64,000 nt of DNA from NCBI GenBank assembly GCA_011033025.1, contig WFMF01000576.1, positions 35,143-99,142 on the forward strand, written 5' to 3'. Positions 688-54,200 of this stretch are shown here, one piece after another; position 1 is the first letter of the stretch; each line of letters starts with the position of its first letter. The position numbers and the translations under genes are program-made. The notes under the pieces are model-generated. The model did not search any database, was not told where the DNA came from, and saw only the letters and a list, made by a program, of their open reading frames with translations. Origin of the DNA: Beroe forskalii. Its lineage: Eukaryota; Ctenophora; Nuda; Beroida; Beroidae.

Positions 688-1027
688 GGTCTGACTCGTG
701 CCGACTGCACTTCACTGATCACTCGTGCCTCAGAAACTCAACTGACTCGTGCCGGTGGTACTCGGTTTTGTTACGTTTAACTGTTCAATGCAAGGGGTGT
801 TGGGAGGGTTAACAGATTTGTGGCCCTATGATCAATTAATCAAATTCAAATTAAAGATGATAAGTCAACCCTAGAAAACCAGCATGCCCTTGTGTCGTTT
901 CAATCATGGATTATAAACTTGCAACATAAAGGATTGTTCTGGGACAAAGTACAAATTCAAAAGTCAAGTATCATAACTGAGTTAGTGTATTTTGCACGAG
1001 TGTAAGGATAGACAGAAACATCAACTT

Positions 1028-1387
1028 TTAAAAGTGATGCTTATTGAACATCATGTACATCATGGGCTTGGGGTCAAAAATCATTTCTTGAGGCTCTGGA
1101 AAATCATTCAGTGTTTCATGAAACACAGAAATGTAATTAAATGTGAGAGACTCATACAAAGTTCTATCATACAAATCAGATGATAAGATATTATTTACAC
1201 GAGCAATGCAACACTCATCAGGTGTCGATAAACGGTAGATCCAAACAGTTAAAAGCAACACGCTGGCACTTAATTTTGAAATAATCGTAATATCAAATTT
1301 AAAACACATTTGGATAGAAGCCACATCAATCACCAACAAGATAAAAAGATTTACTAAAACAGATAAATTTCTTGAACTCGATCTCAT
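1028..1387 (-). CDS. possible small hypothetical ORF or exon
   Basis: A 119-codon open frame in AT-rich DNA. The N-terminus is hydrophobic (LVNLFILLVIDVAS and SVLLLTVWIY) and the C-terminal half is more protein-like, with acidic and aromatic residues (CCIARVNNILSSDLYD, NDFPEPQEM). It could be a secreted or membrane exon upstream of the candidate at 470-687 on the same strand. No family, splice partner or promoter is recognisable. It is listed because the composition is not simple repeat. Confidence 0.15.
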   Translation of the reverse strand: MRSSSRNLSVLVNLFILLVIDVASIQMCFKFDITIISKLSASVLLLTVWIYRLSTPDECCIARVNNILSSDLYDRTLYESLTFNYISVFHETLNDFPEPQEMIFDPKPMMYMMFNKHHF

Positions 1388-1777
1388 TGAAATTGCAAAA
1401 AATCAAAACATAACAAAAAATAAACAGAGTACCTACTTGATCATCATAGAAATAGAATACGACAGCATAATCCTGCTTGAATCATGTAATTACAAACTTG
1501 AATTAATCGAATTAATTTACTAATTTCTCCCTTTGTAAAAAGCAAATTTTGAACCATTCTCAAAATAATAGATGAAGCTTCATATTTAAATTATTGAAGC
1601 TCCTCATATTATCACAATGTTCGAGGTGGCTGACGTCTCAGTATAAACTTAACATTTGTACAATCCACCGAAAGTAAATCCAAAACCATAACCAAAACTA
1701 ATAATAAAAACTGTCCCTGAATCGGGTGAGGGATGCCGTGATAAATAATATCAAAACCTAAATTAAAATAACTATAA

Positions 1778-1905
1778 CAGGGGCAGTTCGTAGTACAGTT
1801 CGCAGGTTGTTCGCGTGCGCGGCTTAAGCTTGCGCGGTATACAGGCATATGATTTATACGCAGCGCACACAAAGAACGTGCAAAGAGCAGTTCGAACTGC
1901 CCCTG
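1778..1905. mobile_element. short inverted-repeat element, CAGTTCGAACTG family, copy 1
   Basis: About 128 bp bounded by inverted CAGGGGCAGTTCG and CAGTTCGAACTGCCCCTG, with a GC-rich interior that can fold back. Related copies lie near 36012-36124 and 43335-43465. There is no coding capacity, so it looks like a MITE. Confidence 0.6.
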
Positions 1906-2007
1906 GAATGCAAAGAATATGGGAGGTGAGTATCATCCTTCTTCATAATAAACTGCGGGAAGTGAAGTGTCCATGCATGAAATGAATAACCACTAAGTCG
2001 CTCAAGT

Positions 2008-2871
2008 CTACAGATTCGGCCTCTTCTTGGGCCGAGAAGGCCGAGGTGGCCGGCTAGGGGGAGGCGTATTACCACCCAAACCAGGGTTACCAAGGTTACC
2101 AGAGCTACCATGGTTACCAGGGTTTCCAATGTTAGCGTATTGGTTGACTGGGATCTCCAAGTTAATAACACTGTCCAAGTCGCCGTCTGACTTAATGCTG
2201 TGCAGTGCTGGGTCAGTGCCCGCACATAACGTCCCTTCACCCAGTGTCTCATAGCCAGGGAGCTTCATGGAGGTGGCGAGAGATAAAGCGCTGTAGCCAC
2301 CAGAGTCATCTGGCGTGATGTGAGGACCAGATGGCGTGATATTAGAACCAGAAGGCGTGATATTAGAACTCGATGGCGTGATATTAGAACCAGATGGCGT
2401 GATGTCACATTGCTGCGTGATGGGAAGTTCAGCAACAGATCCAGAAGGAGGATTTGTGCCGCGGGGAAGACTTTTAGACAACTCCTCAGCCTTCGGACGA
2501 ACAGGTCGCTTGGGAGCAGAGACTGGGGAGTGGCCCTGAGAGGGGGCGGCGCCCTGAGAGGGGGCGGCGCCCTGGATACTGCCGGACGCGGGTTGGTTGG
2601 TGGAGAGAGGGGGTGGGAGGAGGGGTCGAGTGGGGGGTTCAGGGGTGGGATGTACAGTGTTAAGAGTGGGCTGAGCAGTGAGCTCTGCAGTGGTAAGAGC
2701 GGGCTCTGCAGTGATCAGAGTGGGCTGAACTGTGTTTGAAATAGGCTCTGTAGAAGGTTGCACAGTGCTAAAAGTAGGGTGGGGAGGTTCAGATATAGGG
2801 GAAGCGTTCTGCTGGGCCATGAACTCCTCGTTGAAAATGTCATCTGGATCTATCAGGCACATCTCACTCCT
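2008..2871 (-). CDS. terminal exon of an unidentified proline-rich protein
   Basis: The exon begins after a ..CCCTACAG acceptor at 2872-2873 and runs 288 codons, the last being a TAG at 2008-2010. It opens RSEMCLIDPDDIFNEEFMAQ, an acidic segment. A low-complexity region rich in Thr, Pro and Ser follows (repeated TVQPT/TAEP), then a basic-proline stretch (PKRPVRPK). Next come four near-identical NITPSGS units, a Gly-Asn run (GNPGNHGSSGNLGNPG) and a C-terminal PPSRPPRPSRPKKRP, a typical SH3-ligand-like tail. The frame continues in phase 0 from the exon at 3131-3328. I do not recognise the family. A cytoplasmic adaptor with SH3-binding tails is an inference from composition only. Confidence 0.6.
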   Translation of the reverse strand, partial: RSEMCLIDPDDIFNEEFMAQQNASPISEPPHPTFSTVQPSTEPISNTVQPTLITAEPALTTAELTAQPTLNTVHPTPEPPTRPLLPPPLSTNQPASGSIQGAAPSQGAAPSQGHSPVSAPKRPVRPKAEELSKSLPRGTNPPSGSVAELPITQQCDITPSGSNITPSSSNITPSGSNITPSGPHITPDDSGGYSALSLATSMKLPGYETLGEGTLCAGTDPALHSIKSDGDLDSVINLEIPVNQYANIGNPGNHGSSGNLGNPGLGGNTPPPSRPPRPSRPKKRPNL

Positions 2872-3130
2872 CTGTAGGGATTGGGAACAAGTCATAAACA
2901 GTCATGAAACAGTCATGAAACAGTCATAAAACAGTCATGAAACAGTCATTAAACAACATCGCAGCTGACGACGATTATCACAAGATTTTCGAAAGCTTCT
3001 TATTACAATTCTCCCGTATCAGTCATATCGTTTGAACTTCATTTTCTTGAGAACATAACATGAAAAAGATACGACTTAGGCGTTGATAGAAAAATAAAAG
3101 AACACCGCCAAATTATTCCTAATAACTCAC

Positions 3131-5454: not shown

Positions 5455-5830
5455 TAAGGGTATCCGATATAACATTGCATTGATAATAAATACTGATATG
5501 TCACAGAGTACCTGCCAGTCGTAATGAATTTCAACACATTAAGTCCCTCCCCAAGATGGGAAATCTGTTGTCATGTTATATAAGTTCAGCGATCGCTGAG
5601 CCGTGAATAAAATGTGTTTTTCGTTCAACCCCAAAAACTTTTCTTTGGACTTTTGCCAAGTTATCAAATAAACAGAGCCGTGAAGAATATTCTACACCAG
5701 AGCGAGGTGCTGACAATGCCAATTAATTTAGCTTTTCCTCCAGCCACGTGAAAATTCCGTCTGACGTGTCACTAAACACGCTAAATGCATGAATTACATC
5801 ACTCCGCATCATGCGCCTTCCTCACACCAG

Positions 5831-6420
5831 ACAGGCTCTGATTGGTCAGTATACCACGTGGCAGGCTCTGATTGGTCACTTTACCACGTGACAGGCTCTG
5901 ATTGGTCAGTATACCACGTGGCAGGCTCTGATTGGTCAGTACACCACGTGACAGGCTCTGATTGGTCAGTTTGCCACGTGACAGGCTCTGATTGGTCAGT
6001 TTGCCACGTGACAGGCTCTGATTGGTCAGTGTACCACGTGGTAGGCTCTGATTGGTAAGTGTACCACGTGACAGGCTCTGATTGGTCAGTACACCACGTG
6101 AAAGGCTCTGATTAGTCAGTACACCACGTGGCAGGCTCTGATTGGTCAGTATACCACGTGGCAGGCTCTGATTGGTCAGTACACCACGTGACAGGCTCTG
6201 ATTGGTCAGTTTGCCACGTGACAGGCTCTGATTGGTCAGTGTACCACGTGGTAGGCTCTGATTGGTAAGTGTACCACGTGACAGGCTCTGATTGGTCAGT
6301 ACACCACGTGAAAGGCTCTGATTGGTCAGTACACCACGTGGCAGGCTTTGATTGGTCAGTGTACCACGTGGCAGGCTCTGATTGGTCAGTGTACCACGTG
6401 GCAGGCTCTGATTGGCTCTG
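5831..6420 (+). repeat. 30-bp tandem array with CCAAT and E-box motifs
   Basis: About 20 near-identical 30-bp units. Each carries CTGATTGGTCA (an inverted CCAAT box in NF-Y-like context) and, 10 bp further, CACGTG (a canonical bHLH E-box). The variable positions lie between and after the two motifs, while both motifs are kept in nearly every unit. Because 30 is divisible by 3, open frames run through both strands (DWSVYHV on plus, TNQSLPR on minus). These are by-products, not proteins. Confidence 0.9.
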
Positions 6421-23012: not shown

Positions 23013-23243
23013 CAAGCTCTGATTGGTCACTATACCAAGTGGCAGGCTCTGATTGGTCAGTATACCGCGTGACAGACTCTGATTGGTCAGTATACCACGT
23101 GACAGGCTCTGATTGGTCAGTATACCACGTGACAGGCTCTGATTGGTCGGTTTACCACGTGGGAGGCTTTGATTGGTCAGTGTACCGCGTGGCAGGCTTT
23201 GATTGGTCAGTATACCACGTGACAGGCTCTGATTGGCTCTGCT
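23013..23243 (+). repeat. 30-bp CCAAT/E-box array, copy B
   Basis: About eight units of the same 30-bp repeat as at 5831-6420, here more diverged. ATTGGTC is kept in every unit. CACGTG is kept in most, with CGCGTG or CAAGTG in a few. Confidence 0.88.
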
Positions 23244-36799: not shown

Positions 36800-38701
36800 A
36801 TGGGCATCATTTTAGCATACTTATCAGTTTCATTATGCGTAACAACGCATAGTGTGGCAGGCAGAAATACAACACTTACAAAGAACTCTGATGCATCCCC
36901 CTTTCTTCAGACTTCTTCTAAAGGGAGCGTTACAACACAACCCATCACTACCGGACCGGATCCAAATGAAGGTGTGCACATGATGACTGATATCAACAAA
37001 TCCACTCCGCAAGCTACACAAGAAACTCTGCAGGCAATACAAGACGTTACACCCACATTGGAGATCACCCAACTGGTTCAAGAGCCCCCATTGATAACAG
37101 AGACTGGCATTCCCGAGATAGGGGTTCAAGAGCCTCCATTGATAACAGAGACTGGCATTCCAGAGATAGGGGTTCAAGAGCCCCTATTGATAACAGAGAC
37201 TGGCATTCGAGAGACCGTTCTCCAAGAGCCCCTATTGATAACAGAGACTGGCATTCCCGAGACAGGGGTTCAAGAGCCCCCATTGATAACAGAGACTGGC
37301 ATTCCAGAGATAGGGGTTCAAGAGCCCCCATTGATAACAGAGACTGGCATTCCAGAGATAGGGGTTCAAGAGCCCCCATTGATAACAGAGACTGGCATTC
37401 CCGAGACCTCAGCACTGGAAGATATCCCTGCTGATATGCTGGAATGCGTGACCTCCACTCCCCCCTCCCACACTCTCCTCCACAGTTTCTACACCCAGAC
37501 ATTACGTCTCTGTGGGGAGTACTGTTTCCACCTCTCCTCCTGCCATACCTTCTCTTTCAATTTACTGACACGGCAGTGTTCCTTGCATAGCAAGGGAGAG
37601 GACGGTGTCCATTCAGAGGGACATAGCAAGGGAAAGCATGGGAAAAGCAGGGGAAAAGATAACGGAGCCTTGCATGAGGAACACAGCAAGCACTATGACG
37701 GAAGCAGAGGAAAAGATGACAGCCACAGTAAGGGAAAGTATGGGAAAAGCAGGGGAAGAGATGACGAAAACTTGGTTAGTTTCAGCATTTCCTGCTTGGA
37801 ATGCCCCAATAATTTGTCAGGTCTGCTCGAGGAGACTCCTCCGAAGTACCTCAAATCCGAGGCAGTTCTTATCGCTGACCGGAAGACCTGGAACCAGTGT
37901 CTCCATGTCTTCACTTCGAGTGATCAGTACTATCTGCGCTGGGAGGACTGTAGTAGGGCCTCCTTGTGGACTGTAACCAGAACCCATGCTACCTTCGCTG
38001 GAAGGAGGAATGTGATAAGGATCCTCCTCTACGACCCACCTCACTACCCACTGGCGTGGCTAATCAACTCCCAGCTCCCAACCAAGGGATCTCTCGGGAT
38101 TATCCGCACACTGCCCGATTTCTTTGATCCGGAGAAAACCTGGTCCTTCCCTGAAAAAGACCAGCTCTACAACATAACCTTCCTCATATCCCGCAACTAT
38201 CTGAACAGAGAGTGCAGCTTTGCCGTTAGAGGTCTGGTGTTCCGGGGTTGGGAGACCTGGGAGTTGGAGGACTACACCGAGATCGCTGCTCCTCTGCCCA
38301 CTCTCCACATGGCTGATTTGAGGATCTGGAAGCCGCATGCGAGGGGGGTGGTGTGTGGAGTGGGGGAGCTGCGAGTGGAACACAGCCGAGTGAGGAACCC
38401 TGGAAGAGTGCCGTTCTTCCTGAACGGTAGTAGAGTGGGGGTGGTGTGTAGGGAGGGGTATCAGGTGGCAGAAAGTCGGAGGATGGTGCAATGGGTGACA
38501 TGTAGCGAGCAGATCAAGCTCCAGCCCTGTGTCCCTATTAATATGAGTACTGAGACAACAGTGAGCATAACAACAGAGGGGATACCAAAAGAGGGCATAC
38601 CAACACAGGCGATACCAACCAAACACATGTCGTCACAAGAGGGTTATAACTCAGGATCGATCTATTTTCTGGCAGCGATCACCGCACTTCTTGTCTGCTG
38701 A
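36800..38701 (+). CDS. secreted, probably GPI-anchored protein with 16-residue repeats and a sushi-like C-terminus
   Basis: A single-exon gene of 633 codons, notable in this intron-rich DNA. Residues 1-21 are a signal peptide (MGIILAYLSVSLCVTTHSVA). A Thr/Ser-rich segment suited to O-glycosylation follows to about 90. Then come seven 16-residue repeats (VQEPPLITETGIPEIG), to about 205. At about 215-263 there is a cysteine cluster (LCGEYCFHLSSCHTFSFN, RQCSLHS) reminiscent of PAN/apple or WSC modules. Next is a Lys/Gly/Asp/Ser-rich linker (GKHGKSRGKDNG), then a roughly 280-residue ectodomain. It ends in a sushi-like piece (FFLNGSRVGVVCREGYQV, WVTCSEQIKLQPC). The C-terminal SGSIYFLAAITALLVC with no cytoplasmic tail fits a GPI-anchor signal. 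An AATAAA lies 34 bases after the stop. Function unknown; a cell-surface or matrix role is inferred. Confidence 0.75.
   Translation: MGIILAYLSVSLCVTTHSVAGRNTTLTKNSDASPFLQTSSKGSVTTQPITTGPDPNEGVHMMTDINKSTPQATQETLQAIQDVTPTLEITQLVQEPPLITETGIPEIGVQEPPLITETGIPEIGVQEPLLITETGIRETVLQEPLLITETGIPETGVQEPPLITETGIPEIGVQEPPLITETGIPEIGVQEPPLITETGIPETSALEDIPADMLECVTSTPPSHTLLHSFYTQTLRLCGEYCFHLSSCHTFSFNLLTRQCSLHSKGEDGVHSEGHSKGKHGKSRGKDNGALHEEHSKHYDGSRGKDDSHSKGKYGKSRGRDDENLVSFSISCLECPNNLSGLLEETPPKYLKSEAVLIADRKTWNQCLHVFTSSDQYYLRWEDCSRASLWTVTRTHATFAGRRNVIRILLYDPPHYPLAWLINSQLPTKGSLGIIRTLPDFFDPEKTWSFPEKDQLYNITFLISRNYLNRECSFAVRGLVFRGWETWELEDYTEIAAPLPTLHMADLRIWKPHARGVVCGVGELRVEHSRVRNPGRVPFFLNGSRVGVVCREGYQVAESRRMVQWVTCSEQIKLQPCVPINMSTETTVSITTEGIPKEGIPTQAIPTKHMSSQEGYNSGSIYFLAAITALLVC
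37079..37414 (+). repeat. 48-bp coding tandem repeat, 7 units
   Basis: Seven 48-bp units each encode about QEPPLITETGIPEIGV. Units 3 and 4 are the most diverged (ETGIRETVLQ). The low divergence of the others suggests recent expansion, so copy number could vary between individuals. Confidence 0.9.
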
Positions 38702-39225: not shown

Positions 39226-42200
39226 CTGAATAGGACGGGGTCAGTGGGCGGGGTTCAGTCGAAATTAATAATGTTATTCAAGTATGCCAGAGCACAATCT
39301 CAGAAGGGCAGCAAGTATTCTTCAGAATTGATAGTAATCTGCCAAAAAACTGATAGTAAATTGTGTAATTGATAAAAATATTGTTTACCTAATTCATTAT
39401 AAATTGATTAACTGATATAATAATTTGTTTACTTGATTCGGGTTTAGAAGGGGCGCCTCCAGGGAAGGGGGCTGGGCGAGGGGGTTGACTTCGCCTGATG
39501 GCCTCCGAGGGGGGTCGGTTAGTGGGACGAGGAGGTCGCGCCACATCCGAAGAGGAGGAAGTAGAATTAGAGGGAGGGTGAGTGGAGGGAGGAGGGGGGC
39601 GGGAGAAGGAGGGAGGGGGCGCGGGTCTAGCGGGCCGCGGGAGAGAGTTACTCGTCTCTGATTGGCTGGGAGGAAGTGAGCTGCTGCTCGCTGATTGGTC
39701 CGGAGGGAGAATGCTGCTCTGTGATTGGCCAGGCGGAGGAGGGCGGGAAGGAGGGGGAGGGCGAGGAGGAGGCACCTTCTTCACCGGCGTAGTCTGGAAA
39801 GGGTTGGTGGATAAAATTCATAGTCATCCGAGCATGTTGAAATCGTTTATGAATTATGATACGAGAAAGTTTTAAAAACAAGAGCTTTCGAACAGCATGT
39901 GCTAGGCATCGTCAGCAATTCAAATTTCAAAATTTTATTACTTTTTAGAATCAGCTAATTCTTTGCCTGAATAACAGTTAAATTTCGAAAGAACGATAAA
40001 ATCCTAAAAGTCATGAATCTTCTTGAGTATTTAATCAGAAATAGGACGAGTAGAGTGGTTACGAACATCTTCAATTGTAACAATTAAAACGTCGTGTTCT
40101 TGTGATATTTCAATGAATATATCATTCATCATAGTCATACATTCTGAGAAGTTTATTGGTTAGAACATACAACTGACACGCAACATATTCATATCACTAA
40201 GCTCTTATCTTAGCTAAATCTATAAATAATTGAATTAAATTAATTTATTGGAAAATGCAATGCACTGAATATATTATACGATAATCTACTGTCTGCTATT
40301 ATGTGAAATACAATATACATTATACAATATACACAGCAATTGGCAATGTCAAGGCACGAGCACTGTACTCAGTACACGGTGACGTAATGACGTATGTGAG
40401 CTAGTAGAGAGAGAGAGAGTATGTTCTAACCAATAAACTTCTCAGAATGTATGACTATGATGAATGATATATTCATTGAAATATCACAAGAACACGACGT
40501 TTTAATTGTTACAATTGAAGATGTTCGTAACCACTCTACTCGTCCTATTTCTGATTAAATTGACGAAGAAATCCCTATTCTACACACCACTTCTTGAGTA
40601 TCAACTATCAGCAAATTAATACCTGATTGAGCGGGAGTGATTTAAGGATGACGGGAGTGTATTCCTCATTCTCTGAATCATCTGAGTACTCCCCTTCCTC
40701 TTCCTCCTCTTCTGCTTCTTCTGTAAGTGTGTCCTCAATACAGGGTATACCAATCTCTGTTGCATCTCCCTCGCCCAACGCCTCGTCACTCTGTCGATTT
40801 GTTACAATTTACTTTGAAATTTCATCGATAAGCTCAAATAATAACTATGAGGCATTTTCTAAAATCAACCCCCATGACATATTATGTTTCTTTTAATCAA
40901 TTCACAAATCTCTAAATAATCAAAATTACCCATACGCGGCAATTATATTCGTTTCATATTACCGGAGTTTCGATGTCGAGTAGTTTCTCAATAGGTGTGA
41001 GCTGGAAGGTAACGTTAGTAGGTTCGTGGCCCGTGAGTGCCAGCCAATCGTCAGTCCTTAGTAACCCCTAGTTACCCTTAGTAACCCCTAGTAACCCTTG
41101 GCAACCCCTAGTAACGCTTTGTAACCCCTGGTAACCCCTAGTAACCCCTGGTAACCCCTAGTAACTCCTATTAACCTCTAGTAACCCCTGGTAACCCCTA
41201 GTAACCCTGCACTCACCTCAGTCTCATCTAGCTGCAGAGCCTGAAGAGCTGAGACACTGTCCTGGAAGGTGAAGTGCATGACTCCCTCAGGGACCCTGAC
41301 CAGGGTTATAACCCCGAACTGCTGCATCTGTTGTAACCCCTAGTAACCCCTAGTAACCCTTAGTAACCCTAGCAACCCCTAGTAACCCCTAGTAACCCTG
41401 CACTCACCTCAGTCTCATCGAGCTGCAGAGCCTGAAGAGCTGAGACACTGTCCTGGAAGGTGAAGTGCATGACTCCCTCAGGGACCCTGACCAGGGTTAT
41501 AACCCCGAACTGCTGCATCTGTTGTAACCCTTAGTAACCCCTAGTAACCCCTAGTAACCCTTAGTAACCCCTGATAACCCCTAGTAACCCTTAGTAACCC
41601 CTAGTAACCCCTAGTAACCCTGAGCTGCATGACTCATCCCTCAGGGACCCTGACCAGCTGAGACACTGTCCTGGAAGGTGAAGTGCATAACCCCTAGTAG
41701 GGACCCTGACCAGGTAGTAACCCCTGAACTGCTGCATCTGTCTCATCGAGCTGCAGACCCTGAAGAGCTGAGACACTGTCCTGGAAGGTGAAGTGCATGA
41801 CTCCCTCAGGGACCCTGACCAGGGTTATAACCCCGAACTGCTGCATCTGTTGTAACCCCTAGTAACCCCTAGTAACCCCTAGTAACCCTTAGTAACCCCT
41901 AGTAACCCTGCACTCACCTCAGTCTCATCGAGCTGCAGAGCCTGAAGAGCTGAGACACTGTCCTGGAAGGTGAAGTGCATGACTCCCTCAGGGACCCTGA
42001 CCAGGGTTATAACCCCGAACTGCTGCATCTGTTGTAACCCTTAGTAACCCCTAGTAACCCCTAGTAACCCCTAGTAACCCCTAGTAACCCCTAGTAACCC
42101 CTAGTAACTAGTAACCCTGCACTCACCTCAGTCTCATCGAGCTGCAGAGCCTGAAGAGCTGAGACACTGTCCTGGAAGGTGAAGTGCATGACTCCCTCAG

Positions 42201-45200
42201 GGACCCTGACCAGGGTTATAACCCCGAACTGCTGCATCTGTTGTAACCCTTAGTAACCCTTAGTAACCCTTAGTAACCCCCTTAGTAACCCCTAGTAACC
42301 CTTAGTAACCCTTAGTAACCCTGCACTCACCTCAGTCTCATCGAGCTGCAGAGCCTGAAGAGCTGAGACACTGTCCTGGAAGGTGAAGTGCATGACTCCC
42401 TCAGGGACCCTGACCAGGGTTATAACCCCGAACTGCTGCATCTGTTGTAACCCCTAGTAACCCCTAGTAACCCCTAGTAACCCTTAGTAACCCTTAGTAA
42501 CCCTTAGTAACCCCTAGTAACCCTTAGTAACCCTGCACTCACCTCAGTCTCATCGAGCTGCAGAGCCTGAAGAGCTGAGACACTGTCCTGGAAGGTGAAG
42601 TGCATGACTCCCTCAGGGACCCTGACCAGGGTTATAACCCCGAACTGCTGCATCTGTTGTAACCCCTAGTAACCCTTAGTAACCCTTAGTAACCCTAGTA
42701 ACCCTTAGTAACCCCTAGTAACCCCTAGTAACCCCTAGTAACCCTTAGTAACCCTAGTAACCCTGCACTCACCTCAGTCTCATCGAGCTGCAGAGCCTGA
42801 AGAGCTGAGACACTGTCCTGGAAGGTGAAGTGCATGACTCCCTCAGGGACCCTGACCAGGGTTATAACCCCGAACTGCTGCATCTGTTGCAGCACGGCCG
42901 TAACCCTGACCAGGGTTATACCCCCCTGTTGTAACCCTAGTAACCCTTAGTAACCCCTAGTAACCCTTAGTAACCCCTAGTAACCCTTAGTAACCCTTAG
43001 TAACCCTTAGTAACCCTTAGTAACCCCTAGTAACCCCTAGTAACCCTGCACTCACCTCAGTCTCATCGAGCTGCAGAGCCTGAAGAGCTGAGACACTGTC
43101 CTGGAAGGTGAAGTGCATGACTCCCTCAGGGACCCTGACCAGGGTTATAACCCCGAACTGCTGCATCTGTTGTAACAGATCTACTCACGTAACACACACG
43201 GTGGGGTTGGGAGGTCCTATCCCTCGGAAAACCTTCGAATACATCCCCAACTTCTGCTGTGAATTGATCTTCCTGACCTCGATGTCAATCACACCCAGAA
43301 CAGGTCTGCAGAGGTATTGGTAGTCAGGTGACGATTAACGGTGACAGTTCGAACTGCAGTGTGCGCTGCTGAAGTTTGCACGGCGCACAGACCTGTTATT
43401 GAATATTCATACGTCATATGTCTATTGTCTATTAGCACACCATAGTTCGAACTGCCCTTGTAAATGGCAAATGTATCACGCATAGTGAATGTTCAACTGG
43501 AAATACGAAGCAACACTTACTGACATGTTTTACAGAAATAAAGATACAATTGCTCGCGAGTGACCGAGTGAGCTGACCTGTGATCAGAAGTTTTGATTTC
43601 CGTGTTCCCGTAAAACACAAGTTTACCCGGCGACAGGGCGTCTGTGAACTGAAACCTTTCATTGCACCTCCACAGCACCCGATCACACCTGATTGGGGTG
43701 TTAAGTGACGATACTGAGAGGAATTGGGTGTCTAATTACAAACACAAGGAAATATTTTGTCCTGAGATAATAGTACAGCAGCTGACAGAATAGCGTTAGC
43801 CCGAACGGGCGCAATTCTTGTTATTTCAGTTTTTGTAGAGACCTAGTTGGGAAACAATGGTCCTTCTGGAAGTGCTGCATAGTAAAGTGTTGAAGAATAT
43901 GTGATAGGACGGGTAACCCGACGATGTCAGTACGGACGAGAATTCCTTGGTATTGAATTACTCGAGGTAGAACTGGACAATAGGGTCCCTAGCTTTCGAG
44001 TGCCACCTAAAGCTGTTGAACTACTCCTTGAATAAGTCTAAGCTTCTAAGGAACCTGCCTTTTACCCAAGAGTTCCTCAGTTACACCTTGTCAGACGGCA
44101 CAACCATTGAGCCCAGCAAAACTGTAAGAGACCTGGGTGTTTTGCTCTCAAATGACTGCTCATGGACACCACACATCCAGAAGATGCTGATATCAACCAG
44201 AACAGTTGCTGCTTGGGTCCTCAGTGTATTCCGTACAAGAACTCCCACACTCATGATAACCTTGTACAAGACAATGGTGAGGAGTAAATTGGAGTACTGC
44301 TGCCCTGTTTGGAACCCAGCGAAAGTTGAAGATATCAGAGATATCGAAAACATCCAGCGAAACTTCACAAGGAAAATCAGTAGCTGTAAAGGACAAAACT
44401 ACTGGGAACGCCTAAAGACCCTTAAACTCATGTCTCCAGAGACGCAGAGAGCGATACACTATTATCCACACATGGAAAATAGCTACTGGAGCTGCTCCAA
44501 ACGACATTGGCATGAGCTTCAAGAAGAATCTAAGGCTAGGCCTGAAGGTAGCTGTCCCCAGCCTCAACTCTAAAGCCCAAAGATCCGTAGCAACCCACTA
44601 CCACAACTCCTTTGGAGTGAAAGCAGCCCTTCTCTGGAACCTTCTTCCCAAATCTGTAAACGAACAGTCCACACTTGACTCATTCAAAGTGGCTCTGGGA
44701 AGATTTCTTGAGAGCTTTCCCGACACACCTCCAACAACAGGATACACTGCTGTAAACAGCAACAGCCTTCTTGAATGGAATCTTCAGAGATGTTCCAGAA
44801 TGGCAGGCTTGGAAGACTCGCATGTTGACGTCGCCCATCTGTGATCCCGGCTAAACGGACTCTAAGGTACTCTAAGGTAGGTAAAGCGTTCAGATAGACA
44901 CACGTTTTCGGCTCCCTTTACCTACTAAACTATTCCTATTGCTTTATTCTTTGTTTTTGATATTTTTTGATGGTTGATTGATTTTGTATTGTTATATCTT
45001 TCTGCACTGTAACTTCACATCATAATTTTCAAAGATGCGAGGATGATGCTATTCGGTTTCTATAGGACAGATCGTCAGATCATCCTGTCCTATCAAGTTT
45101 TTTTTTCACACTCCAGAGTCGTTTCCGATTTAACATGAATTCACAAGTTCAACTGAGTCACGAACAAATAAGGAGAAGGAATGTGAGCACATTTCACCAG

Positions 45201-48200
45201 GAAGGCGATCTGAACTTGTCGCTGGTAACGTAGCAGTCAGATTCCAGATAGATAGGGCGTTAAGCGATGATATTGAGAAGAATTGGATGTCTAATATCAA
45301 ACGCAAGGAAATATTTTACCAGGAGATAATACCACAGAAGCTGAGACTTACAGGTCAGCCTATACAGGCGCAATTCTTGTTATTTCAGTTTTTGCAGAGA
45401 CCTAGTTGGGAAACAATGGTCCTTAATGGAAGTGTAGTAAAGACACGAAAACGACGTTTCAAGTAGCATCGACGATGCACACGAAATAACGTGGTATTAA
45501 ATTACATGAAATGGAACAGAGGAAGCTTCTTTATTCTAATCCAGTGCTACAATATGGCGTATTATGCTTTTTCTTGCAACCAATGCGGCGTTAAACTTTG
45601 TTTGATTATCTATCAAAATTGACATTTAATATGAATTCGAAAGATCAACGGAGCCACGAACAAATAAAAAGGAAAGTAATTTACCAGGCAGGGGATCTGA
45701 ACTTTTCACTGGTATCGTAGTAGTCAGAGTCCAGGTCGTACTTGTAGGTAGGGGCAAACTCTAGGGGGCCTTCGTTGTAGTTCTCAAACACCTGCGAGTA
45801 GATTGGTAACCTGTCGACATTCTTAAACCTACGTTAACAAAATAGGGTAAACTTCGACAAACGAGGATAATTTTAAAAGTGATATTTGATCAGTTGTATG
45901 ACCTAATCGTTTTTCAACAACATTTTCAGGTTTTGGCTTAAAAATCGTGAATATCCTTCGTCATCAACGTTAAGTCGTAAACGTTATTAACAACGGTACC
46001 TTATTAACAACGGTAACTTGTTAACAACGGTACCTTATAACAAGATCTTGAAGGAAGGAACCTTATTAACAACGGTACCTAATTGACGATGGTATTTTGT
46101 AACAACAGGACCAATGGCTACGTTATTAACAACGGTACGATATTAACAAAGGTATGTTATTAACAACGGTAACTTATTAAGAACAGTGCCTAAATGACAA
46201 CGGTACCTTATTAAAAACGGTACGTTATTAACAACGGTACCTTATTAACAACGGTACCTTATTAACAGCGGTACCTTATTAAGAACGGTACCTTATTAAC
46301 AACGATTATTAATATCATTTACAACATTTTAAACAACATTATTATAAATGATTATTAACACAATTAAGCAAGGCAACTCAAAAATTAAATTGAAAACTAA
46401 TGACCAGAGCTGCAGCACATGCCCTTATATATGATGGTTGACACCACTCAGTCATCAATGACGAACGGCACATTCCGCATACCAACTCTATGACGTTGAC
46501 ACCACTCAGTACCCAATCAAGCATGACGAATAGCGTTACGTCTAGATGTGTTGATTTTTGCTTAAAATTTTGCATCATTTTAATTCTTTTTAAATTTGAT
46601 CTACATTTACTCATTTACTCATTCCATATTGTTTTATATAGGGATCAGACATTACGATTGTAATTTGATCATTATTTGTTTAATCCTGTTTAATTAATCC
46701 TGTTTAATACCAACATCAAGACGTTGACACCACTCTGCACCCAATCGAGCATGACGAAAAATGTTACGTGCCCACTGCCCATACCAAATCGATGACGTTG
46801 AAAGCACACAAATTTATTACGATAAAAAGGAGCCCATTTTTTCTCTCTCACACTACATGCATCTAATATTCATTCAAAATTCGTAATTTATGAATATAAA
46901 TTTTAAATACGTTCGTCCATCATCAAAACAAAATCGAAATATAACAAAACGTACGCGCGTGCGCGGTAATTTCGCTACATTGACAGTACATGGCGACTCC
47001 TAACAAAAACCTAGCGCGCTACGCAATCAGACTTTTAAACTGTGACCGCCCCTTGAGGAGTAATTTGTTTGGAAAAGAGCCTTCAGAGTTCAGTGTCGAA
47101 TTTCATGTTTTCATTTGGAATTACGAAAAACGTATCCGGTATCTCATGCATGTACACAACCAAAAGCAGGCCAGGTTGTGTGTTTAAAGGTCATGTTGTG
47201 TGTTTAAAGGTGATACAAACATCTTACTTTTAGAAACAAAGATAACCGATAATAATTGGCTTGGGCAAACATTCGAATTAACAATTTCGGAATACTGTCA
47301 TCTCTTAACGTTGTCTCCCTTACCTTTCCCGCATTTTTCTGCACTGTAAGTTGATCTCCACACTGCAAGTCGTACCAGGCCTTCTTCTTGACTAGATCCC
47401 GTATCTCGTGGTTAGCGTAGTCTATTCTGTAGTTGAAATCACCACACCAGAAGACGTAATCGTGGTCTTCTATTTCCATGCCCTGGAATTAATAGTCTTT
47501 TGATCACTGAAAATGGTCTTACGATCACTGAAAGTACGGCTTTTTGCATGTTCGCCGGAAGAAAGAAGCAGAACATAGAGCACTTGAGTAGGGCTTGGAA
47601 TGAACAAGTAAATACTAAATAATTCACCTTAACTTTCAATCAGAAAGGAAAGTATCAGACAAATTACCAAGAACTGAAATGTATAAGATCAAGAAAAGCC
47701 TCTAACATACGTTATCAAAGAGAGCCTTATCTCTTATCAGCTCATAGTGCTTATTCCTGTCCAGTACATGTGTCTGTCCTGCAGCCAGATGAGCACATAC
47801 GAAACAGATAGAAGTAGAGTAGAGGTTGAAGGAGATGGCAACACCTCCCTTGTTACCAGTCTTCCCTTTCATTCCTGTCTTGATGGCGTCTATACAGATA
47901 TCACTGAAAACAAGGATAGCTAGTGGGGGTGCAGTCTATACGCTATATTATTACCCTCCCGTGGCTCAAACTCCAGTGTGATAATTATCGATATATCACT
48001 CCTTTATAGAACTACTGAACAGTGGCGGAATAATAGAGCAGAATATCGTTGAATAAATTGTTGATTTTATGAAGGAGCACTCAAAATCTATAAAAACGTT
48101 GAATTCAGACGAGGGTCGTCAGACCCGAGTGGGAGGGAGTACTGTTTTGTCGGGTAATAATACAATTAACTAACTCATGGATCGTGTGATATCGAAAATT

Positions 48201-51200
48201 GTCAAACTCGGCTAACGCCTCGTGTGATAATTTTCGATATCACACTCCCAGTCGTTTGTTAATCGTACATTATATAGTTTAAACTTTAAAGAGATGAGCA
48301 ATATCAATGTCGTGATTTTACACGTGCACCTTTTGTAGGGCAAGGTCAATGAACAAATACTGGATAATGGGGGTGCAAATGTAAACTAAACACTAGGTAA
48401 AGTCCGGTTTGTCCGGTCCCAGTACATCCATTTCCCTGAAATAATTTAACGCTGGGTAAAGTCTTATTTATCTAGGACCTAGAGTTGGCATTTTTCACCC
48501 TTACGTGCAGTGTTGGAGGTGCTTTGCCTTGACGAAGACGAACAGACAGACACCCACAAGTTGTTTTGCAGACAGGAGAATGTAGTTTGTGTCACGACAT
48601 AGGATCTCTGGAACCGTGAGCTCCATAACCCTCGCTTCGTTTGGCTGCGAAGAAGAGTCTCATGAAACCTTTCAAATTTATATTAAGGAAATATTTCAAG
48701 AATTTACATCATTTTTACAAATTTCCGATATCTCCCTAAATTATCAAAGCTAGAATTGAGTCAAAGTACAATAACGACATGCTAGTATGCTACAGTATCT
48801 ATATAGTCGTAATTACAGTAAGTATACTGAAAAGCTGAACGCAGATAAATTTGTGTCATTTTTCATTGTGTACCTTGTAGATACGATGTTTCCTGCAGTC
48901 AGATCAACCAGCTCCTGTAAACCAATAGCAATCACATCAGGCCCATCCTTGTGGGTCAGTGCCGACTTGTCCACATAGCCAAAGGAGGGAGTTTTAGAGT
49001 CTGAGAGGGAAGGGAGAAACAGGAAAATTAAGTCATTAGGAAATTGGGAAATCAAGAAAAATCAATCAATTAATCAATCAACCAACCAACCAACTACCTT
49101 AGGAGGTTTATTTATAAAGGTTGTGATTTGGGGATTTTTCAGAAAAATCCCCATTTTATCACCCACCATGACATTTCGAAATGACGTCATTATCATATGT
49201 TAACGAGAGTAATAACTTGAACAATCCCCATCTTTTCAACTTACCAAAATTTGAAACACCGAAATTTTATCCCACATAAATACACCTCCTAAGGTAATAA
49301 ATAAAAATAAAAGTACATTTGTCACAAAGCAAGGGGTACCTAAATCTTGCTTCTGGTTCTGCAGATTTTCATCGAGCATCAGTAAGTCATCGCAGATTGT
49401 TCCGTGGTTCTTGTTTTGTAAAGCATTTGCTACCTCAGGAGCGTCCAATAGCCATTCGGCAAGCTTATCTTTGTCGTCTCGGATTATTTTACCTGGTCAA
49501 GGAAGGGGGCATCAAATACACCATTGATCAATTGTGAAATTACTGTTAAATACAACAAGGGGTATGTTCAAGTAATATTCAGATCTTAAATAACACAGCT
49601 ACTGTATTCAATCAAAGTGTAATATTAAAACGTGACGTTTTTCGTCGTCACATGACTTGATCATGCACATTACAAATGTCAGGATAAAGAGTTAACCCTT
49701 ATCTTGACCGATATATCTGACCTCCGTTACTGTTCCAGGTTCCTACTGCAACTCGTATTGGTAGCTTGGTGGAGTAATGTTGAGATTCCGATAGCAGGCA
49801 GTCCACAAACGTACTGGGTACTGGGAGAGGAAGAAGGACGCTTAAAATACGTTACATTACGTACATAGTACGTTACAGTACCATATATGGTACGCGATAG
49901 TAATAACGTGATTTACTCTTTTTTCAGTACGTGGTTTACCCGTTCTTTCTTCTTTTCTACGCTCAGGAATAAAGTGTTTACTGTTTACGCATCCCAAGGA
50001 CAGGTAGCAGTGTAATGTAACCTGATATACACATCTCCCAAAAATATGTACAGGAATACGCCTCCCAAAATATGTAGAGAAATTATTGGCAGCACTCCTC
50101 ACTCCTCTCTACTTCTCTAATACAAGATAATTACACAGTGTATATTTCTACATATTCATACACAGAAAACTTCAAAGAATTTTCAGGTATACTCTTCCTG
50201 CAGTTGACAAATGAAAGCACATACACATGCAGGTTTGGAGGATATTTCAACATCAAAATAGATTTCGAGATTACACGCGTTTCATGTACAGAAAATAGGC
50301 TCCAATTGGTGCCTCTCGTCATGATATAATAACAATATGAAATGTCGTTGTATTGACTTAAAATTGAACAAAATCTTACTCATATCAAATCTTTTATTAA
50401 GATAACCAGCCCACGGGGACCCAGAGATAACTCCAGTCACAGGCGATCCCAATTGACAAAAAAATCTACATTTTCCAGTATTGTTCCAGTATTTCAGTAG
50501 GTATAATACCTACTGAAATACTGAAACAATACTGACAGTATTTTGACTCACGGAATCGTTCGAACTTTGAGATAACGGGAGCGAGTGGTTTGTCCGGGTA
50601 GAGGAGGAAGTCCTCGATACTCTCCTGTCTATCATCGTCCAGGAAGTTGTTCTGTATCGTCCGTTTAACGGAGCGAGTGGCGTCCGTTATCTTACCCATC
50701 TGAAGGAAGAGTAGCTGGGCAGGGTGAGGAAGAGGTGAGGAAGAGGTGAGGAAGAGGGTGAGGAAGAGGGTGAGGAAGAGGGTGAGGAAGAGGTGACTGC
50801 TTTTAAACGGGGGACGGATCTACATTCTACAAGAAATCCAGACAGAAACCCCGGCACGGGACCTCCCGCTGGGAGGTCCCAGGAAGAGGCATTCCAAGCA
50901 TTAAAATACCTTTGATGTGAATTCAAAACAAAATAAAACGCCGTCATCGATTTCGAGAAGTTTTTCATGCCATTTTCATCCTGAATTTGAATGATTTATT
51001 ATGCATTCGTCCATAGGATTCGTCCATATGATTCGTCCATATGAGCGTATGAAATATAGAAATATGTATACCTGGGCACATTATATGCAATTGTTTTTGT
51101 TCCCTTTTATTCATTGAGCTCCCGAACATAAAACTATAAAAGTACTATCGCTAATTCTAATGACTATATAGTATGGACGTGAGATGGTAGTGGTCAGTGG

Positions 51201-54200
51201 ACTTAGCACCTGCTTGAATTAATACACGACTTAGACAGTTAGACAAAGCATTGTTGCTTTTTACTTCCTAATTGCTGTCCTTAAGGTTAAGTTTTACATT
51301 TTGATCGCATGTTTTTTCTCGTTTTCGCTATAGTCCTGATTCCTGACCCATCAACGTTCTATGTTGACACCTTCTCTGATATTTAATCAGAAATAGGACA
51401 AGTAGAGTGGTAACGAACATCTTCAATTGTAACAATTAAAACGTTGTGTTCTTGTTACAATTGAATATGTTCGTAACCACTGTCCGCGTCCTATTTCTGA
51501 TTAAATTGACGAAGAAATCCTTATTATACACACTTCTCTGATTATATCAAATTCTGCTTTTCCTTAGAAAACTTTCTTCATGGTAAACAAGTTTGCTGGG
51601 GGATCTGAAAGAGTGTTTTAAATCAGGGATACCTTTCCTGACGCAGTCTTTAGAGCCCCCGTCCCGCAGTACGTCCTGGAAACCAAGTTAGCGTTGGTAT
51701 GCCAGCACTTATCCAGAGCTGTCTGGAACTTATCTATCTGCGGTACTGCAGCTATGTGTTCCAGCTGCCGGTACAGGACTTTGTTAGCTACGAAGGACTG
51801 GACGGAGTTGGTCCGGTCAATGCAGTCAAGACAGTTGGTACGCAGGACACCCTCCTGAATCCTGAGCAGAGAGTGGGTGTTAGGAAGGGAGATGGAGAGA
51901 GGGGATCAAGTTATGTCATTTGGTGGCGATAGGACGTGGGGGAGAATTCTTTTGGGGGGATGATAGGAGTGAAAGGGTGGGAACGTTGGGAGTGGAGGTA
52001 GGAATGATCCAGGGAAGGTGGTGCAAGAAGGGGGAGGGGCGGAAGAGATTATTTAAGAGGTTTATGACACAACCTACCCGACACACTCATCCCCACTCTG
52101 TCTGAATATCCCACTAAATCCCACGAAGGGGGAGGGGGGAGTGGGGGATGAGAGGGGGGTTGAGGAATGGGAAGTGGGGGAAGAGGAAGGGGGAGGGGTA
52201 GGGGGAGTAAGAATGACCTACCCGACACACTCATCCCCGCTCTGTCTGAATATCCCACTGAACCCCACGAAGGTCTCAATGTCCTTGTAGAGAGTGTTGA
52301 TGGGTTCTGTTCTCCCGCCCCGGCACGCCGAGTGGTAGTCGAAGTTCCGAATCATAACGTCGTCATGGATACTGTCCAGCTGATGCGCCTGAGAAATGGA
52401 GAATTTATACGTCCAAACGAGAAAAAGGCGTTATGATAGTGGTGATATAACGGTTATCAGCTTAGCGCGAAGTGGTAAGCTGATGACGCTGATCTGTTTT
52501 TTGTGCAGAGCTTAGTCAGTGGCTAAGAATGATTTAATTGAATATTGAGAACAAATTGGCGTGACAAAATACTTTTTTAGTTGACAGTCCAGTCTAGCCA
52601 GATCTCGCTACGCTGCGGCAAGTAAAATTGCAAGGACTGTTTCATAATATTATCACACCTAACGCATGATGATAACACTTACAAATCTCCAGTGTTACTA
52701 GCAAGTAGTTGTGAGTTGTGACAGTAACATAACATTCATAACGTCTCACGGAGGGCGTGAGAAAGAAGCACTGATGTAGCACTCTTAGCTCGTCATCAGT
52801 GGGAAACGAGTTTAATCTTCGTGTCAAAATTTGGGATACGGTGGATGCGTAATCAGTGGACAGTGTGGAATTAGTTAAAACTTTAAAACTTCGTATCAAA
52901 GTTTGGAATACAGTAAGAATGTTATCAGTGATTCTGTGGGGAATGAGTTACAACTTTGCATCAATGTATCAATATTTGGGATATACGGTAGGAATGTAAT
53001 CAGTGGAAACTGGAAAGTAAGTACTAAAACTTAATATATCAAGATTTGGGATATACTGTACGGTAGGCTAATGAAGTGTTACGTCGAATCAACGTGTTTG
53101 TGATATATCAGGGATCATTTTATCGATGAAGCGTATCGAAATGTTCATCCGTCAGATAAATAATAACATATTTGTGATAGGTATATCTTAGTATCTTATC
53201 TGAGCCCTGAGTCCACCAAGGCCTTGATTCGTCGTCAAACTTCACTAGATACTTAGACGGATAATGCCAGAGCAACCCCATAAGATCATCTTGCTTTCTT
53301 GGTTTTGTCTCGCTGTATGGGCTTGTTTGGATAGTAATCGGTTTTGACTGAATGCTTACGAACGCTGGAGTTATTTCTCCTGCACATCTGGTCCAGTATT
53401 TTATTTCATAAATACTTGAATTAGTAAATAGATACCAAGTTAGCAAGTAAGTCACTTGAAGCTTTCAAATTTTCAAATGAGGGAGTACCTACTTCAATTC
53501 ATAGCAATGAAGTGATGACCTCAGAATTCAGATTGGATTATGGAATGAATTATTAACATAATATTATTTTAAGTAAATTTAAGAATCACAATAATGATCA
53601 AATGGGACCGCATCAGACATCATTGATAAGCAACTCTACTTTATAATGAATGAAAAGATTAATAAAATGCTTGTTAAAATTCAGCTAGTTTATTCTTTTG
53701 TTTGTGAAGTTGCAGCTCACTTAGAATAATACTGAAACTCTCATTTTGACTTTGTGTTAAATTGCTCATTCTTCATTATCATCGAATCATTTCGGATAAT
53801 TCACTCCTGATCGGTAGGTACTTCTTGTGCCTTGTACTCTTGTATAAGTGTATAGCTGTAAAAAGGCTTTCACTTCGAGTTGCTTTGTTTGATAACTTAA
53901 TAATGCTTAGACTATTACTCTAATAATTATGTTGTCCTTGACCTTAGAAACACGTTAAGTTAGATTGGAGTATATATATATTATCATCTGAGTTGCTTAG
54001 TAAACTTGTTTTGTTACGCTAATGAAAGTTGATCATAAATGAAGCTACCACTGATATTACAAAGTCTACCGTCTACGTAATACAATGGCTTATTGTTGAG
54101 TTATCACATTGCATCACGCTAATCCTATAAGTAGGCATTGTGTAGGTCAGTAGACATTATGTCTAGCGTCTGGTAATATAAAGAGGAGACCTTTAACTCT

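Follow-up and report, generated by a model that had tools for sequence, protein, structure and literature searches.

This study examined a 64,000-nucleotide (nt) window of the Beroe forskalii genome (the whole stretch of DNA analysed, to which all positions refer unless another contig is named), which forms the end of one 99-kb contig and carries a synaptojanin gene on the minus strand. In this gene, the 3' end of an exon from the DUF1866/RNA recognition motif (RRM) segment is repeated nine times in tandem, in eight cases with its donor, and alternates with a decamer minisatellite. From the DNA itself, we consider it moderately probable that units of exon end, donor and minisatellite arose by tandem duplication, that each messenger RNA (mRNA) uses one copy and that the rest are surplus donors. 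This explanation is favoured because donor-bearing echoes exist for two of the 22 exon queries of the gene, a locus on another contig (C781) has the same build, the array contains block self-matches, and one ctenophore sequence (P0123) diverges right after the repeated unit.

The ungapped scan, covering both strands of the window with up to 35 mismatches, located nine copies of a 111-nt unit between 43166 and 41217, all on the minus strand. Seven are identical over the 111 nt, one has a synonymous change and one is rearranged, so that the tandem array described in an earlier note on this DNA is real, as is the 133-nt length of copy 2. GTGAGT directly follows eight of the nine copies, and CAG directly precedes every one. 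The spacers between copies measure 71–217 nt and consist mostly of the decamer GGGTTACTAA or GGGTTACTAG; since they differ in length and in their strings of A/G variants, it is unlikely that the assembler pasted one unit repeatedly. Short units in tandem that are homogeneous within the array identify an intragenic minisatellite. In the genome searched (216 Mb, 1134 contigs), the exact three-unit decamer pattern gave 35 overlapping matches, all inside the array, and matches outside the array to the array as a query cover its minisatellite parts. The genome searches with exons score best candidates only, so that their counts are lower bounds; among the matches listed, none to DUF1866 or to the RRM exon lay elsewhere, and nine of nine fell at the array in both searches. 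Offset self-matches within the array (271–693 nt at 95–97%) would fit block duplication.

Comparison with relatives shows what the unit contains. The proteins of Mnemiopsis leidyi (P0001) and Bolinopsis microptera (P0002) read, in order, TVCVTC, 15 residues including C, LTAVMQEMQKFG (VTAVLQEMQQFG in Bolinopsis), LDETE, VLNHTLDIHLKSTADDW and ITPIERLLD, and each has one complete RRM, the number that the earlier note gives for vertebrate synaptojanin. The repeated unit encodes the 37 residues from MQQFG to LDETE, 33 of which are as in Mnemiopsis. As P0001, P0002 and a further sequence, P0122, all have coding sequence immediately 5' of the unit's ATG, the unit is an exon that has lost its 5' part, and the CAG in front of it is an exonic glutamine codon; the unit starts mid-exon, with the donor GAG/GTGAGT as its sole old-looking splice site. 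The residues VTAVLQQ before the unit (VTAVLQE in Bolinopsis) are retained only in copy 2. A translated search of the window with the relatives found neither the 15 residues that precede VTAVLQQ nor the beta4 coding sequence VLNHTLDIHLKS that follows LDETE, and the DUF1866/RRM-like domain of the predicted protein is incomplete, beta4 being absent with either downstream acceptor (41067 or 41001). The decamer passes straight into ACTGACGATTGG, and the adjoining 31-residue stretch is contiguous. An early idea is that GGGTTACTAA might be a leftover of the beta4 coding sequence, with GLLR.TDDW in frame.

P0122 is a 133-residue open reading frame of a 4091-nt contig, ctenophoran in look. An AlphaFold model of it, made from 18 sequences (mean predicted local distance difference test score 72.5, ten-residue means of 89–96 across residues 31–100), places the unit at residues 53–89, as beta2, beta3, alpha2 and only the last residue of alpha1, without beta4; the first strand of the model is partly a translation of upstream, probably intronic sequence. 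An RRM rebuilt from tandem units was ruled out, as the start of alpha1 and beta4 are missing. The first 40 residues of P0123, up to LDETE, are identical to those of Mnemiopsis and the sequence diverges right after LDETE(V); therefore, its contig probably has an intron there, at the same place as GAG/GTGAGT in the window.

Splice sites were scored with weight matrices built from 16 acceptors and 17 donors of the synaptojanin gene itself. The donors of the array score 7.3 in eight of the nine copies and are good, as had been claimed. Copy 1 has an ATG acceptor of 1.1 bits, and those of the other eight copies range from −5.9 to −2.7; the 16 real acceptors have a leave-one-out median of 6.9 (range −6.2 to 12.2), and 14 of them exceed those eight. 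Pyrimidines make up 40–47% at the ATG acceptors, whereas 17 real acceptors average 71%, with 40% as the lowest value. The proposal that every 111-nt unit is a splice-competent exon is thus not supported, since the unit is truncated and its supposed AG acceptor is a glutamine codon that scores poorly in eight of nine copies. The acceptor of copy 2 at 42905, in phase with E15, scores 3.3 bits. Reading through from exon E15 into copy 1 meets an immediate TGA, and reading from a copy into its own spacer meets a stop after 11–15 codons in all nine. When copy 2, alone or followed by 1 or 7 more copies, was joined to each of the two downstream acceptors, the frame stayed open in all six combinations examined, which upholds the statement that the units are phase 0-0 and that any number of them keeps the frame. 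The acceptor at 41001 scores −0.1 bits and has TACTAAC just upstream, which we take to be a branch-point-like motif, and 41067 is the in-frame alternative; 41001, earlier used as the acceptor of the next exon, lies within what the relatives have as coding sequence.

We infer from these features that a tandem duplication may have broken midway through the RRM exon on one side and within the minisatellite of the next intron on the other, which would have created a unit of the 3' part of the exon, the donor and the minisatellite. Unequal exchange or replication slippage would later have multiplied and homogenised the units, and the same instability may have deleted neighbouring coding sequence on both sides. 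A single copy, by homology most likely copy 2, would be used in the mRNA, and the remaining copies would be surplus donors within an intron. The array copies resemble surplus splice sites more than additional parts of the protein, and the suggestion that they may be silent decoys is a better fit than stepwise inclusion.

Several points weigh against this explanation. The matrices derive from one gene's 16 acceptors and 17 donors; among these acceptors, two (−6.2 and −4.9) score as low as those of the array. The ctenophore sequences conflict on the intron at the LDETE donor, which need not be old, as P0122 runs in one open frame through that position and P0123 suggests an intron. Moreover, each copy contains CCTTCCAG/GAC, which scores 8.8, above the ATG acceptor of the copy, and GGTCAG/GGTCCC, which scores 4.2 against 3.3 for the acceptor at 42905. 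As the latter site is in phase with E15 and gives, from all eight donor-bearing copies, a 79-nt exon with an open frame to the next exons and the same protein, copy 2 need not be the copy used. These sites raise the alternative that internal acceptors are in use, with either 45-nt, phase 0 pieces (15 residues) being included from CCTTCCAG/GAC, which has its score of 8.8 in every copy and also in the scrambled partial one, or a splice from E15 into whichever copy. We regard such use as rather improbable, since the relatives conserve both sites as coding sequence and the scores may be by-products.

Stepwise inclusion of the 111-nt copies, giving a variable number of beta2–beta3–alpha2 units, would take advantage of the good donors, the identity of seven copies and the frame that stays open with added copies. 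It seems very improbable to us: its acceptors are exonic codons that score poorly in eight of nine copies, copy 1 lies just 22 nt from the E15 donor, which is below the usual length of an intron, recent amplification accounts equally well for the identity of the copies, and extra units would not restore an RRM whose flanking parts are missing. A decaying gene copy or a faulty assembly, by which the array, the lost RRM parts and a frame slip in E10 would be damage or error, is unlikely, though less so than either form of inclusion. The contig does terminate inside the gene, E10 (48505–48644) shifts frame internally between a 13-residue stretch and EILCRD relative to Mnemiopsis and Bolinopsis, and the RRM parts on both sides of the unit were not recovered. 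Against this, 19 exon pieces join into a single 914-codon open frame, only with the E9–E10 junction picked to preserve the frame (a junction that is probably wrong in this version); the Sac and phosphatase exons are well conserved (67–93% in most rows, 52% in E8), the genome matches listed include no second RRM locus, and the spacers differ among themselves. The genome of another ctenophore, Hormiphora, contains 13% tandem repeats and has an elevated indel rate in introns (PMC8527503).

Exon edges with a splice site are also echoed elsewhere in the gene. When 22 of its exons were used as queries, E4 and E13 were each found to have one copy of their 3' end, including the donor, in the following intron, and the remaining matches were internal repeats of the last exon only. 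The donor of the E4 echo scores 6.8, the same as the original, and that of the more diverged E13 echo scores 4.2 against 7.3. An intronic duplication of approximately 187 nt (82%) lies at 43701–43887, beside E14, and at 45260–45442, beside the E13 echo.

In the genome, 51 loci with related minisatellites were fetched, selected either because they resemble the array or from among the first 100 entries in a list of 1121 pattern matches, and 12 of them were inspected in whole or in part. Six appeared exon-like by eye (L052, L054, L055, L057, L091 and L095), and L051, L064, L077 and L084 were unclear or not exon-like. On C781 (L054 and L099), a cysteine-rich exon-like segment carries both an acceptor (11.8) and a donor; the donor (5.7 in all three) is retained in two more copies that are missing the 5' part, with a GGGGTTACYA-type repeat between copies; its family match, Ephrin_rec_like at 8e-4, is below the curated cut-off. 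The mirror image was observed on C204 (L052), C365 (L095) and C1072 (L057), where 3'-truncated exon-like copies beside related minisatellites keep the acceptor (seven acceptors, scores of 1.0 to 14.1); a firm family match for these three was looked for in databases and none was found, support being absent or weak. Database support is likewise absent or weak for two copies of a short open segment on C503. The longest series was found on C356 (L091, C356:166900-171000, 1005–3109), where 25 tandem acceptors scoring 7.4–13.1 stand in units of 78 or 87 nt and a frame stays open for 743 codons into a 7tm_1-like segment (5.7e-5, a partial match below cut-off). All 24 spacings are multiples of three, which is weak evidence because there are just two unit lengths.

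These loci raise the joint claim that the genome would time and again copy the edge of an exon, along with one splice site, in a head-to-tail series next to that exon, leaving arrays of between 2 and 25 similar donors (synaptojanin, E4, E13 and C781) or acceptors (C204, C365, C1072 and C356). We advance it tentatively and think it somewhat more apt to be wrong than right. The process may instead be local duplication of a general kind, in a genome rich in repeats. A special link of duplications to the array minisatellite was not found: 17 of the 50 loci compared showed a non-repeat duplication separated by repeat, as did five of 25 window tiles of 2300 nt (Fisher p 0.28). The comparison is weak given the way the loci were selected and their far higher repeat content (masked bases: 28,576 in the loci, 5,994 in the tiles). 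Two array tiles and L099, which overlaps L054, were left out, and the control tiles are not independent, since they come from the same gene region and, of the five positives, one is the E4 echo and another lies beside the E13 echo.

The similar arrays apparently present at other loci are a more interesting point than the synaptojanin array itself. If exon edges are amplified repeatedly, comb jellies would provide transcripts in which donors or acceptors of nearly the same sequence form a natural dose series, which would allow the effect of splice-site number alone on splice choice to be tested and make an early step in the birth of introns and isoforms visible. Such arrays would differ in length between individuals and alter splicing via copy number, and the G-protein-coupled receptor-like gene on C356 could yield a ladder of in-frame isoforms. 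The synaptojanin array also prompts the question of whether the RRM has been lost in this lineage.

Among known systems, an intragenic minisatellite or variable number tandem repeat repeats a short unit, with units of higher order and copies that are nearly identical; the array likewise has short units and near-identical copies, but its higher-order unit carries an exon end and a donor. Dscam exons are diverged and complete, and a Dscam-like choice of exons was ruled out here, since the array copies are mostly identical and truncated. What the array has in common with Dscam-type mutually exclusive clusters (PMC1397879) is a series of homologous exon copies between other exons. Tandem exon duplication (PMC9013439) shares head-to-tail exon copies within one gene, partly intronic; in contrast, the mostly identical copies of the array have neither the 5' part of the exon nor its acceptor and are interspersed with minisatellite, so that by their truncation and acceptor scores they are not complete exons with both splice sites. 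Intron gain by tandem genomic duplication also multiplies splice sites by local duplication; in that model (PMC3443670), an exonic AGGT is duplicated and its second copy becomes the acceptor, whereas in the array the donor is multiplied and any new intron is putative. Among the literature matches listed, with most subscription journals lying outside their coverage, none described exon ends arrayed in tandem with minisatellites in a ctenophore.

The identification of the gene as synaptojanin, and of the repeated segment as DUF1866/RRM, made in the earlier note, agrees with domain profiles and relatives. In a translated search with the relatives, the gene extends from near the contig end down to approximately 2.1 kb of the window. 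Its predicted product is 69% identical to Mnemiopsis P0001 (624 bits) and 72% identical to Bolinopsis P0002 (619 bits; next match 325 bits) over the searched region, with a query that had the doubtful E9–E10 junction. The Sac domain was recognised over part of its length (PF02383, 4.1e-16) and CLDCIDRT is present in the translation; the inositol 5-phosphatase domain (PF22669) passes the cut-off in two stretches (1e-25 and 3.7e-10) and misses it in a third (9.1e-4). The DUF1866 match (PF08952) reaches position 97 of 146, the array segment matches the RRMs of two solved vertebrate synaptojanins (1ufw, E 2.5e-4; 2dnr, E 0.003), and a 14-residue stretch in an exon was judged by eye to represent the proline-rich C-terminus. 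Mnemiopsis exons align from residue 217 onward; the first 216 residues are without a match, as the contig terminates 664 nt past the first matched exon.

Table 1. Exons, exon echoes and array elements of the synaptojanin gene, with positions in the window.
Feature	Position	Strand	Basis
Exon E4	52222..52388	−	tblastn with Mnemiopsis and Bolinopsis proteins
Echo of E4 3' end and donor, 58 nt, 94.8%	52072..52129	−	exon-query search
Exon E13	45685..45791	−	tblastn with Mnemiopsis and Bolinopsis proteins
Echo of E13 3' end and donor, more diverged, 55 nt, 85.5%	45193..45247	−	exon-query search
Exon E15, before the array; end AC/GTGAGT, phase 2	43189..43305	−	tblastn with Mnemiopsis and Bolinopsis proteins, and frame
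Copy 1, 111 nt, 22 nt from E15 donor	43056..43166	−	window scan
Copy 2, 133 nt, acceptor 42905 in phase with E15	42773..42905 (111-nt part starts 42883)	−	scan and alignment
Copy 3, identical 111 nt	42543..42653	−	window scan
Copy 4, identical 111 nt	42331..42441	−	window scan
Copy 5, identical 111 nt	42127..42237	−	window scan
Copy 6, identical 111 nt	41918..42028	−	window scan
Copy 7, three changes, no GTGAGT donor	41736..41846	−	scan and splice-site scores
Scrambled partial copy containing decamer pieces, right after copy 7	about 41620..41735	−	window scan
Copy 8, identical 111 nt	41408..41518	−	window scan
Copy 9, one synonymous change	41217..41327	−	window scan
Stretch with decamer minisatellite GGGTTACTAA/G between and after copies	41068..43055	−	repeat and pattern search
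Truncated next exon, 35-residue stretch open in frame; candidate acceptors 41067, 41001	40963..41067	−	scores and translated search
E17, acidic, next after truncated exon	40623..40790	−	frame and alignment with relatives

Other repeats were observed in the window. A 48-nt tandem repeat of 6.9 copies (37075–37406) lies inside a minus-strand open frame (37556–37068) between matched synaptojanin exons, and a 7-nt repeat (62803–63197) starts at the donor of the exon at 63336–63199. An identical 30-nt tandem repeat unit occurs at two sites approximately 17 kb apart (5830–6415 and 23016–23236).

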